This document shows, in pieces, positions 38,475-41,123 of a stretch of DNA of 64,000 nucleotides (within the stretch, counting starts at the first letter, position 1; each line of letters opens with the position of its first letter). Origin of the DNA: Ruminococcus sp. (GTDB lineage Bacteria; Bacillota; Clostridia; Oscillospirales; Ruminococcaceae); contig NZ_JAILNU010000117.1 in the NCBI RefSeq assembly GCF_024691275.1, positions 1-64,000 of the forward strand, read 5' to 3'. A program made the position numbers and the translations under genes. Under the pieces are notes generated by a model. The model saw nothing but the letters and a program-made list of their open reading frames with translations. It did no database searches and was not told the DNA's origin.

Positions 38475-38714
38475 TTAGAGATTTGAATGAAAAGTTCTTG
38501 ATATAACGTCGTCCTGCTGCTCCTTTGTGAGCTTGACGAAGTTTACTGCATAGCCCGAAACTCTTACTGTGAGCTGTGGGTACTTCTCAGGGTGAGCCTG
38601 AGCATCAAGGAGCGTTTCGCGTGTGAACACGTTTACGTTGAGGTGATGGCCGCCTTTTTCAACGTAGCCGTCAAGAAGTTCTATAAGGTTGTCAACCTGT
38701 TTCTGGTTATCCAT
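38475..38714 (-). CDS. Stand-alone glycyl radical domain protein (GrcA-like)
   Basis: This 79-residue protein matches only the C-terminal domain of pyruvate formate-lyase: GGHHLNVNVFTRETLLDAQ, YPQLTVRVSGYAVNF with the radical glycine at residue 54, and QQDDVISRTF. E. coli GrcA (YfiD) is a similar free radical domain that rescues damaged PFL. Here, however, the pflB product upstream ends before this domain, so this subunit should be required to complete the enzyme. GGAGG precedes the start. A PFL-activating enzyme gene is not in the window. Confidence 0.9.
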   Translation of the reverse strand: MDNQKQVDNLIELLDGYVEKGGHHLNVNVFTRETLLDAQAHPEKYPQLTVRVSGYAVNFVKLTKEQQDDVISRTFHSNL

Positions 38715-38770
38715 TTTTCGTTCCTCCTTGTTACTGTGTAGGGGCTGATAGCCCGATTGGGTTTATTGCT

Positions 38771-38790
38771 GAACGCCGAGGACGGCGTTC
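38771..38790 (-). other. Hairpin between the two small pfl genes
   Basis: The perfect 8-bp stem GAACGCCG / CGGCGTTC has a 4-base loop. It lies in the 83-base gap between the 73-residue gene and the radical-domain gene. It may tune transcript ends or stability and so the ratio of subunits. Confidence 0.45.
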
Positions 38791-38797
38791 CCTGCAT

Positions 38798-39019
38798 TTA
38801 TAATTCGTCATCATCGTCGATGGCATCTTCGGTGGGCTGACAGCAGGCACCCTTTGTGCCGCATACATCGGTACTTTTAACGGTATCGACTTTCAGCTCC
38901 GAGCCGCTTTCGCCTGAGACGATATTTACATGACCGCTGCCCTGTTCCATGAGCTTGTCGATGAGGTCTGCAAGCTCTGAGGGATCATCGGTCTTTCCGA
39001 GCATATCGGGAGTTATCAT
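38798..39019 (-). CDS. 73-residue acidic cysteine-containing protein in the pfl operon
   Basis: The start ATG 39019 lies one base after the pflB stop, with GAGGAGAA inside the end of pflB, so it is translationally coupled. The first half (PSELADLIDKLMEQGSGHVNIV) resembles the start of the glycyl radical domain next door (VDNLIELLDGYVEKGGHHLNVNV), but the radical RVSGY motif is absent. The second half has DVCGTKGACC and a very acidic end. It may be a decayed domain copy turned into an accessory or linker subunit, possibly binding metal through the three cysteines. No known family comes to mind. Confidence 0.7.
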   Translation of the reverse strand: MITPDMLGKTDDPSELADLIDKLMEQGSGHVNIVSGESGSELKVDTVKSTDVCGTKGACCQPTEDAIDDDDEL

Positions 39020-39020
39020 A

Positions 39021-41123
39021 TTATTCTCCTCTGAGCTTGTCGAGGTCGAGGTCTCCTGCGAATACTTCCATATCCTTGCCGAGAGCGTTAGGAATTATGG
39101 AGAAGGTGTTGGAGATACCGTCCTGAGCGTGTCTGAACGGGAGCTTAGCTACAGATGAAAGTGAAGCTACTGCACCGTGAGTATCTCTGCCGTGCATCGG
39201 GTTAGCTCCAGGAGCGAGCGGTACGCCCTGTTTGCGTCCGTCAGGAGTATTACCTGTCTTCTTGCCGTATACGACGTTAGAAGTGATAGTGAGGATAGAC
39301 ATTGTAGGAACGCTGTCACGGTATGTGTGGTGCTTTCTTACGCAGTCCATGAACTTGCGGACAACTGTAACAGCGAGCTGGTCGACACGGTCGTCGTTAT
39401 TGCCGTATTTCGGGAAGTCTCCCTCTATCTCATAGTCAACGACAACGTTCTTTGCAACGTCAACAACATTGCCTGCCTTGTCCTTGATCTCGATATCCTT
39501 GCGGATAGGCTTTACCTTAGCGTACTTGATAGCTGAGAGCGAGTCTGCAACGACTGAAAGACCTGCGATACCTGTTGCGAAGTAGCGCTTTACATCTCTG
39601 TCGTGGAGAGCCATCTGGAGTCTCTCATAGCTGTACTTATCGTGCATATAGTGGATAACGTTGAGGGTATTGACATAAAGTCCTGCAAGCCACTCCATCA
39701 TATCCATATACTTTTCCCATACATCGTCGAAGTCGAGGTACTCGCTGTCAACAGGACGGAACTTAGGGCCTACCTGTAAGCCGAGACGCTCGTCCACGCC
39801 GCCGTTTATAGCGTAGAGGAGGCACTTTGCAAGGTTAGCTCTTGCGCCGAAGAACTGCATTTCCTTGCCGACTCTCATTGAGGATACGCAGCAGGCGATA
39901 GCGTAGTCGTCACCGTGTACAACTCTCATCATATCGTCGTTCTCGTACTGGATAGATGAGGTCTTGATAGACATTTTAGCGCAGTATTCCTTGAACTTTC
40001 TCGGGAGCTTTGTTGACCAGAGTATAGTCATATTCGGCTCGGGAGCAGTTCCGAGGTTTTCGAGAGTGTGGAGATAACGGAAGCTGTTCTTTGTAACGAG
40101 GTGGTGACCGTCAACGTCAACGCCGCCGATAGATTCTGTTATCCATGTCGGGTCGCCCGAGAACAGTGAATTGTACTCTGGAGTACGTGCGAACTTGACG
40201 ATACGGAGCTTCATGATGAAGTGGTCGATGAGCTCCTGTGCCTGTTCCTCGGTAATAATACCGCGGTCAAGGTCACGCTGTATATAGATGTCGAGGAAAG
40301 TGGAAGTACGTCCGAGGGACATAGCTGCACCGTTCTGCTCCTTGACAGCTGCGAGGTAGCCGAAGTAGAGCCACTGTATAGCTTCCTTAGCGTTTGCGGC
40401 AGGCTTTGAAATATCGAAGCCGTATATTTTTCCCAGTTCCTTGAGTTCCTGAAGAGCACGTACCTGCTCTGCGAGTTCCTCACGGAGACGGATATTCTTG
40501 GAAGTCATTCTGACAAGTGATGTCTCGATCTGATGTTTTTTGTCCTCGATGAGCTTGTCTATGCCGTAGAGAGCTACACGTCTGTAGTCGCCGATGATAC
40601 GGCCTCTGCCGTAAGCATCAGGGAGACCTGTGAGTATAGCCGAATGACGGGCAAGTCTCATTTCCGGAGTGTATGCGTCGAAAACGCCCTGATTATGAGT
40701 TTTTCTGTACTTTGTGAAGATATCGACAACTGACTGATCTACTTCATAGCCGTACTCCTTGCAAGCCTGCTGAGCCATACGGATACCGCCGAAAGGCTGA
40801 AGCGAACGCTTGAAGGGCTTGTCTGTCTGAAGACCCACGATCTGTTCGAGGTCTTTGTTGAGATAGCCTGCGCCGTGTGAAGTTATAGTAGATATGATCT
40901 TGGTGTCCATATCCAGAACACCGCCTGCTTCTCTTTCCTGTCGGGACAGTTCCATTACCTGCTCCCAGAGCTGTTTTGTAGCTTCTGTAGGACCTGCGAG
41001 AAAGCTTTCGTCACCTTCATAAGGAGTGTAATTCTTCTTTATGAAGTCTCTGACGTTGACTGAACTGGAGCTCCAGCGGCCTTCTTTGAAGCCGTCCCAT
41101 TCCTTTGCCCATGTATTGACCAT
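39021..41123 (-). CDS. pflB: Pyruvate formate-lyase core subunit lacking the glycyl radical domain
   Basis: This 700-residue protein follows PFL from start to finish: WDGFKEGRW, the SLGRTSTFLDIY region, the catalytic cysteine pair at about 411-412 (AIACCVSSMRVG) and the FFGARANLAK motif. It ends after FSIIPNALGKDMEVFAGDLDLDKLRGE, where E. coli PFL continues with its C-terminal radical domain. That domain is encoded separately at 38475. PFL cleaves pyruvate with CoA to acetyl-CoA and formate. AAAGGAG precedes the ATG. The split is clean at a domain border, not a frameshift. Confidence 0.93.
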   Translation of the reverse strand: MVNTWAKEWDGFKEGRWSSSSVNVRDFIKKNYTPYEGDESFLAGPTEATKQLWEQVMELSRQEREAGGVLDMDTKIISTITSHGAGYLNKDLEQIVGLQTDKPFKRSLQPFGGIRMAQQACKEYGYEVDQSVVDIFTKYRKTHNQGVFDAYTPEMRLARHSAILTGLPDAYGRGRIIGDYRRVALYGIDKLIEDKKHQIETSLVRMTSKNIRLREELAEQVRALQELKELGKIYGFDISKPAANAKEAIQWLYFGYLAAVKEQNGAAMSLGRTSTFLDIYIQRDLDRGIITEEQAQELIDHFIMKLRIVKFARTPEYNSLFSGDPTWITESIGGVDVDGHHLVTKNSFRYLHTLENLGTAPEPNMTILWSTKLPRKFKEYCAKMSIKTSSIQYENDDMMRVVHGDDYAIACCVSSMRVGKEMQFFGARANLAKCLLYAINGGVDERLGLQVGPKFRPVDSEYLDFDDVWEKYMDMMEWLAGLYVNTLNVIHYMHDKYSYERLQMALHDRDVKRYFATGIAGLSVVADSLSAIKYAKVKPIRKDIEIKDKAGNVVDVAKNVVVDYEIEGDFPKYGNNDDRVDQLAVTVVRKFMDCVRKHHTYRDSVPTMSILTITSNVVYGKKTGNTPDGRKQGVPLAPGANPMHGRDTHGAVASLSSVAKLPFRHAQDGISNTFSIIPNALGKDMEVFAGDLDLDKLRGE

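Follow-up and report, generated by a model that had tools for sequence, protein, structure and literature searches.

Can a pyruvate formate-lyase (PFL) be made by a bacterium as two separately encoded chains, one for the barrel and one for the glycyl radical? This question is raised by an operon of Ruminococcus sp. (assembly GCF_024691275.1), located on the minus strand of the first 64,000 nucleotides of contig NZ_JAILNU010000117.1, the stretch of DNA analysed here and referred to as the window. The operon consists of a pflB gene that ends before the radical domain (the core), a gene for a protein of 73 amino acids (the middle protein), and a gene for a 79-residue stand-alone radical domain (GrcA3). 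We propose, with a probability of roughly 0.8, that PFL is encoded in this organism by this operon alone and consists of two chains; a role of the middle protein as a guard is a guess. The features on which this proposal is built are, in the direction of transcription, as follows.

39021..41123, minus strand: PFL core (pflB without the radical domain), 700 amino acids; matches to PF02901, TIGR01255 and PDB chains
39888..39893, minus strand: codons of the adjacent active-site cysteines, core C411-C412; positions counted from the alignment
39025..39032, minus strand: ribosome site of the middle gene, CTCAGAGGAGAATAATATG, inside the end of the core gene; from the sequence
38798..39019, minus strand: middle protein, 73 amino acids, putative radical-domain docking half plus cysteine peptide; unnamed family
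38828..38863, minus strand: cysteine motif CGTKGACCQPTE, residues 53–64 of the middle protein; from conservation in alignments
38723..38729, minus strand: Shine-Dalgarno sequence AAGGAGG of GrcA3; from the sequence
38475..38714, minus strand: GrcA3, stand-alone glycyl radical subunit, 79 amino acids; NF038360 over the cut-off
38553..38555, minus strand: codon of the radical glycine, GrcA3 Gly54; from the sequence and its invariance in the alignment

The two outer genes together cover one complete enzyme. The core matched TIGR01255 over model positions 1–666 of 744 (1114 bits) and GrcA3 matched it over positions 662–744, confirming the claim of a first-pass annotation that PFL is here divided into a core and a separate radical subunit. 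The core also matched PF02901 (731.6 bits) and the first half of PF01228, a radical domain model that is cut mid-way, with positions 2–51 on the core and 50–106 on GrcA3; PDB matches included 38la_A (1141 bits) and the E. coli PFL 1h16 (1004 bits). Because the core covers E. coli PFL to residue 681 and GrcA3 covers residues 677–757, the split is clean and no stretch of the enzyme is missing; the helix before the last strand goes with GrcA3, not with the core. The core had been described as stopping right after the IPNALGKD segment; its end does lie at a domain border, but 16 further acidic residues (MEVFAGDLDLDKLRGE) follow that segment. The middle gene starts one base past the core stop, the gap from the core stop to the GrcA3 start is 306 bp, in keeping with the 0.3 kb noted earlier, and purine-rich ribosome sites precede both small genes. 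GrcA3 scored 166.9 bits against NF038360 (cut-off 158), and the glycine of its RVSGYAV motif, Gly54, was invariant across 19 aligned members. The two adjacent active-site cysteines of a PFL are present on the core, where C411-C412 align with E. coli C418/C419 (ddyaiaccvssmrvgk); the radical domain is not completed in the same chain, its remainder being the separate gene. A full PFL activase (TIGR02493, 300.7 bits, cut-off 231.75; G000:C82) is encoded on another contig of the source genome, away from the split operon, and an activase motif was found downstream of GrcA3, within the stretch examined per locus, in 30 of the 63 split loci described below, mostly outside Ruminococcus. A hairpin with a perfect 8-bp stem lies between the middle gene and GrcA3 (38771–38790); no other exact copy of its pattern occurs in the window, and folding of this gap was not clearly better than that of shuffled sequences (z −1.7).

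The split is not peculiar to this assembly. We compiled 63 split loci, comprising the window, 20 loci from a sample of its order (one of them from the same genus), another 20 from the genus itself, and 22 from the class; the last group includes two just under the GrcA3 cut-off (L205 in G602, 154.5 bits; L206 in G612, 152.1 bits), L206 is without a core, so that core-based counts use 62 loci, and L124 and L139, in which the search pattern found no PFL, were left out of the counts. Both halves were close together on one contig in 21 of 23 further genomes of the genus. Median ratios of nonsynonymous to synonymous substitution (dN/dS), computed among 15 loci from pairs with 0 < dS < 2 only, were 0.027 for GrcA3 (31 pairs) and 0.17 for the middle gene (26 pairs).

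Full-length PFLs were sought in three sets of genomes. The source genome (3.41 Mb, 93% complete, 117 contigs) gave one PF02901 match, and PF01228 matched only the two halves. None of the 23 same-genus genomes contained a classical full-length PFL; eight of them presented one further weak match (20.7–25.9 bits), probably to other radical enzymes. Two of the same-genus genomes, G010 (96% complete) and G021 (64% complete), gave no match to the glycyl radical domain at E ≤ 0.001; since G010 is 96% complete, PFL may be absent from some members of the genus. The middle protein also led to 57 named records; all contained GrcA3 and 54 contained the core, which is cut off by contig ends in the other three. 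Nine of these records are Ruminococcus flavefaciens isolates, including ATCC 19208 and FD-1; GrcA3 was present in all nine genomes, and a whole-genome search found no classical full-length PFL in any of them, subject to the contig ends of strain Y1 described below. A second, full-length PFL, which would argue against an obligatory subunit, was thus found neither in the source genome nor in the 23 genus genomes nor in the nine R. flavefaciens genomes, and the earlier claim that the small protein is an obligatory subunit gains genomic support within the genus, where we consider it well supported. Across the 20 split genomes of the order, 12 presented a single match at E 1e-15 and eight presented at least one further, weaker match. 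R. flavefaciens produces formate, according to the accessible part of PMC8865330; as no classical full-length PFL was found in the genomes searched from the genus, the split enzyme is, judging from sequence, the likely source of this formate.

Two explanations that would deprive the operon of its meaning can be weighed against these data. A frameshift, pseudogene or assembly error, against which the own stop and ribosome sites had already been cited, is excluded by the conservation of the split, which recurs at 63 loci and in 21 of the 23 genomes of the genus, and by the low dN/dS values of both small genes, each of which has its own start and ribosome site in the window; its probability is practically nil. 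It is also very improbable that GrcA3 is an ordinary spare part of the GrcA/YfiD kind, repairing a full-length PFL encoded elsewhere, with the core as a relic. The name of the NCBI family, "autonomous glycyl radical cofactor GrcA3" (NF038360), of which the window protein is a member, implies a spare part, and GrcA3 is indeed a stand-alone radical domain with the glycine; however, no full-length PFL for it to repair was found in the source genome, for which as assembled this role is ruled out, or in the 23 genus genomes. Moreover, the core has kept its cysteine pair and a 1114-bit match to TIGR01255, and GrcA3 is under strong purifying selection (dN/dS computed for the two small genes). GrcA3 also lacks the long disordered N-terminal extension of spare parts, with 79 amino acids as compared to 127 in YfiD, and its match to 6owr begins at GrcA3 residue 19 and YfiD residue 67.

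Among known systems, the single-chain PflB of E. coli (1h16/2pfl) shares the core family, the cysteine pair, the radical-domain sequence and the activase family, and differs in that the radical domain is here a separate protein, with the core ending at about E. coli residue 681. GrcA/YfiD and Y06I of phage T4 are likewise stand-alone radical domains used in trans, but they repair a full-length PFL, whereas GrcA3 is encoded beside a core without a radical domain; GrcA3 also begins earlier than these proteins, at the helix before the last strand. An engineered counterpart is a two-chain PFL made of a truncated E. coli core (tPFL, residues 1–695) and YfiD, which, once activated, was as active as the wild type according to the accessible part of Andorfer et al. 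2021 (PMC8683613), which shows that a two-chain PFL can work. The engineered cut is some 14 residues further towards the C-terminus than the natural one, so that the helix stays on the tPFL core; we infer that the helix on the small subunit may secure binding in the natural split.

Some of this ground has been touched by others. Two PDB entries listed as "Formate acetyltransferase", 38la and 38lb, contain chains of 687 and 739 residues that were matched by the core but not by GrcA3; from their sequences, 38la_A and 38lb_A are apparently split-type or truncated cores (38lb compared without its last residues), which indicates that others have worked on such cores. No GrcA3-like chain of either entry was found at E ≤ 0.001, and neither entry was among the listed fold-search matches of a cysteine-tail core model (library to 8 April 2026). 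No source that we found states that a truncated PFL is the partner of GrcA3, no description of a split PFL or of a GrcA3 subunit was found in the open-access literature, and the accessible parts of PMC11528403, PMC12338860 and PMC7174568 contain nothing on a split PFL. Relative to the sources searched, the novelty lies in the middle protein, in its relatedness to the radical domain and in its alternation with a core tail; GrcA3 as a named NCBI family and PDB chains resembling such cores were already known.

The middle protein was present in the window and at all 20 further same-genus loci (L088–L107). A search returned 260 relatives; among the matches listed, the named ones are hypothetical proteins and the organisms shown are Ruminococcus, and a Pfam domain was found in none of 120 listed. 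No Pfam or NCBIfam model is dedicated to this protein, and the window copy had no Pfam match at E 1 or 10. Together with a dN/dS of 0.17, the 260 relatives rule out a chance open reading frame. Several comparisons point to kinship with the radical domain. A profile of 18 diverse members, picked by us from the loci, aligned with a radical-domain profile in hhalign with a probability of 95.4% and a score of 43.8, as compared to 16.9 for the best of 100 column shuffles; an earlier alignment to GrcA3 that used close relatives only was weak (probability 10.8%). In this alignment, the first half of the middle protein (ELADLID..GSGHVNI type) is paired with the radical domain's helix and strand. Because a hidden Markov model (HMM) of the middle protein was seeded from the same split loci, its E-values there are circular; two less dependent checks are the search with this HMM at 55 full-length PFL loci, where among all open reading frames of at least 30 codons it gave 36 matches at E ≤ 0.1, each of PFL size (741–809 codons), and the search with the GrcA3 model, which weakly matched 8 of 33 middle proteins (best E 2.5e-4). 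The middle protein thus contains the helix and strand that form the first half of PF01228 and lacks the radical glycine loop, with no R-V-S-G-Y in 33 aligned members. Its second half carries two to three cysteines (DC..GAC.QPTE or DC....AC..PTL.EGLD) followed by an acidic end; A58, C59 and P62 were invariant in 33 diverse members, T63 was conserved in at least 90%, and C53 was nearly invariant in 25 close members. An AlphaFold model of low confidence (predicted local distance difference test, pLDDT, 59) shows a helix at 13–25 and strands at 30–35 and 42–47. From its sequence, the middle protein appears to be a relative of the radical domain in which the docking half was kept and the glycine loop was replaced by a cysteine peptide.

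The middle gene alternates with a cysteine tail on the core. Across the 62 loci with a core, 32 had the middle gene, 26 had a cysteine tail, none had both, and four had neither (L190, L199, L200 and L205). The middle gene lies between the core and GrcA3 in 31 loci, in which the core tail contains no cysteine, and after GrcA3 in G563 (L186). The 26 tail loci, mostly from other families, have no middle gene at the locus and a core that ends with at least two cysteines, as in VDIDCGSGACSSPTLFEGLD. The C-x-x-P motif that is invariant in the 33 aligned middle proteins recurs as C-x-x-P-T in 22 of the 26 tails (exceptions L071, L191, L192 and L194). No middle gene was found elsewhere in the genomes of the four loci with neither element or in two genomes with a tail (G744 and G605). 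Explaining the tail state on the core tree takes a minimum of three changes, so that the alternation was not one event. The simplest reading of these sequences is that the cysteine peptide must be near the core, either via a docking module or by direct fusion. Second split operons that lack a middle gene were observed in R. flavefaciens MA2007 and YL228 (L282 and L283), where the core ends ...DLDLDKLKKQI and GrcA3 follows close behind; they fit a middle protein that acts in trans, with adjacency dispensable.

We propose the following division of labour. The core would contribute the barrel and the cysteine pair, and GrcA3 the helix, the last barrel strand and the radical-glycine loop. The PFL activase, encoded elsewhere in the genome, would charge GrcA3 at Gly54, and GrcA3, seated in the core like an ordinary C-terminal domain, would hand the radical to C411/C412. 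If oxygen cleaved GrcA3, the loss would be limited to a 79-residue part, which could then be exchanged; we infer two-chain activity, obligatory pairing of core and GrcA3, and such exchange. The middle protein would dock at or near the radical-domain site of a GrcA3-free core and present its thiols there, serving as placeholder and redox guard, and in other lineages the cysteine peptide would be fused to the core. The docking place and the cysteine chemistry are a guess, which we regard as possible rather than probable. The wider scheme, in which a Clostridia PFL with a replaceable radical subunit has its open site filled by a cysteine stand-in derived from a copy of that subunit, which quenches thiyl radicals or keeps the catalytic cysteines reduced and which, where lost, gives way to a peptide fused to the core, is offered tentatively and must count as rather doubtful. 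Class I ribonucleotide reductase has a flexible C-terminal cysteine pair, spaced C-x4-C, near an active site with cysteines; this is a possible parallel to the C-x4-C tails seen here, with no sequence match shown. Unlike that enzyme, PFL needs no external reductant for turnover.

Two other accounts of the cysteine element deserve consideration. It is possible, though not probable, that the target of the middle protein is the activase, or the supply of electrons or metal (e.g., through an iron-sulphur or zinc site), rather than the radical-domain site of the core, as might be suggested by the two to three cysteines that lie close to its flexible, acidic terminus and by the accessory subunits that other glycyl radical enzymes have (according to the accessible part of PMC12590467); however, the tethered version of the cysteines sits on the core, and the docking half is similar to the radical domain's first half. 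The second account, that the split arose several times and that the cysteine element is a by-product of linker loss (a tag for solubility or turnover) without any redox function, is in our judgement unlikely. All trees were quick searches with support from the Shimodaira–Hasegawa-like approximate likelihood ratio test only; near-identical Ruminococcus rows were thinned in the sets for the core tree and the approximately unbiased (AU) test, some partial cores and rows with an unmatched end were left out, and one analysis in the core-tree series ran without five of the six full-length rows named next. In the core tree, a single strongly supported region holds the split cores, with six full-length PFLs nested among them, and the AU test rejected the split cores as one clade apart from these six (p 0.0037; 38 versus 46 rows). 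The tree of the short radical domain grouped the same six with other full-length PFLs (support 98). Because the two trees disagree, several splits and one split with re-fusion are both possible. The rejected single clade, the placement of the six radical domains and the loci without any cysteine element favour the by-product account; against it, the middle protein occurs in each of the two deep branches of split cores, all 33 aligned middle proteins contain C-x-x-P, and C-x-x-P-T is frequent in the tails. No middle gene was found in the six genomes with nested full-length PFLs, five of which gave no match and the sixth only its own PFL.

Several observations weigh against the proposal that the operon makes a sole two-chain PFL guarded by the middle protein. 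The source genome is 93% complete and in 117 contigs, so that a full-length PFL might be missed. In R. flavefaciens strain Y1, a contig end truncates the core, and another contig begins with a 20-residue end of a radical domain; strain 007c has an additional glycyl radical protein of 717 amino acids (61.5 bits), and MA2007 and YL228 carry, besides the second split operon, a weak match of 786 amino acids. Binding of YfiD to the truncated E. coli core was weak and lowered activation, according to the accessible part of PMC8683613, suggesting that a split carries a cost. Structure models do not support docking of the middle protein, with pLDDT values of 59 for this protein and 50.7 for the cysteine-tail core, whose alignment was too shallow and whose fold searches show PFL kinship only. 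The absence of any cysteine element at 4 of 62 loci and of the middle gene at the second operons of MA2007 and YL228 indicates that the element is not strictly required per locus. Finally, the absence of loci with both elements was judged at the locus, with 2 of the 26 tail genomes searched genome-wide.

GrcA3 occurs well beyond the genus. Of the genomes sampled, 21 of 394 from the order, 21 of 391 from the class, and 2 of 398 from the phylum (these two belonging to the window's class) encode a protein over the family cut-off; the samples overlap, each count includes the source genome, and the occurrence is scattered across many families. In two metagenomic GrcA3-like proteins (P0121 and P0234), part of the radical domain is repeated in tandem within the chain. 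Among 74 viral loci, 16 (L289–L304, on contigs of 4–333 kb) were GrcA3-like by identity and coverage; GrcA3 was the best NCBIfam family for all nine of these that were scored, below the cut-off (138–157 bits, over the matched part only). A PFL core was found on three of the 16 records and on none of the other 13, which may be fragments; a lone phage-borne GrcA3 would fit exchange of the radical subunit in trans, as circumstantial evidence. One viral record (L366; G1188, 19000–37000) is phage-like, with GrcA3 followed by a PFL core ending SLGKEED, and its contig also bears topoisomerase II subunits and an anaerobic ribonucleotide reductase; the core contains three in-frame TGA codons at the W of GKWSND, TLWKQ and DPVWVTE, and the sequence suggests a TGA-recoded phage with a whole split PFL. 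By search only, G1196 resembles this record. GrcA3 is flanked in L368 by an anaerobic ribonucleotide reductase gene on one side and a small Fer4_12/radical SAM gene on the other, and in L373 it lies right after an anaerobic ribonucleotide reductase gene and a small open reading frame resembling the Fer4_12/radical SAM gene of L368. L367 (G1187) is filed as viral and has PriA-like and riboflavin-transporter-like genes beside a split PFL, and may be bacterial.

PFL is a main route by which fermenters of the gut and rumen turn pyruvate into formate, and the formate feeds methanogens. In a natural two-chain PFL, radical storage and catalysis would be separate tasks, so that activation, oxygen damage and repair could be studied with the radical part added or withheld. 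Our results suggest that an annotation as "autonomous cofactor GrcA3" stands for an enzyme subunit, and that the pflB genes of these bacteria, although truncated, are intact. As a candidate for the protection of an open radical enzyme, the middle protein is defined and testable; if the proposed role is true, it would be a protein devoted to a glycyl radical enzyme in its idle state.

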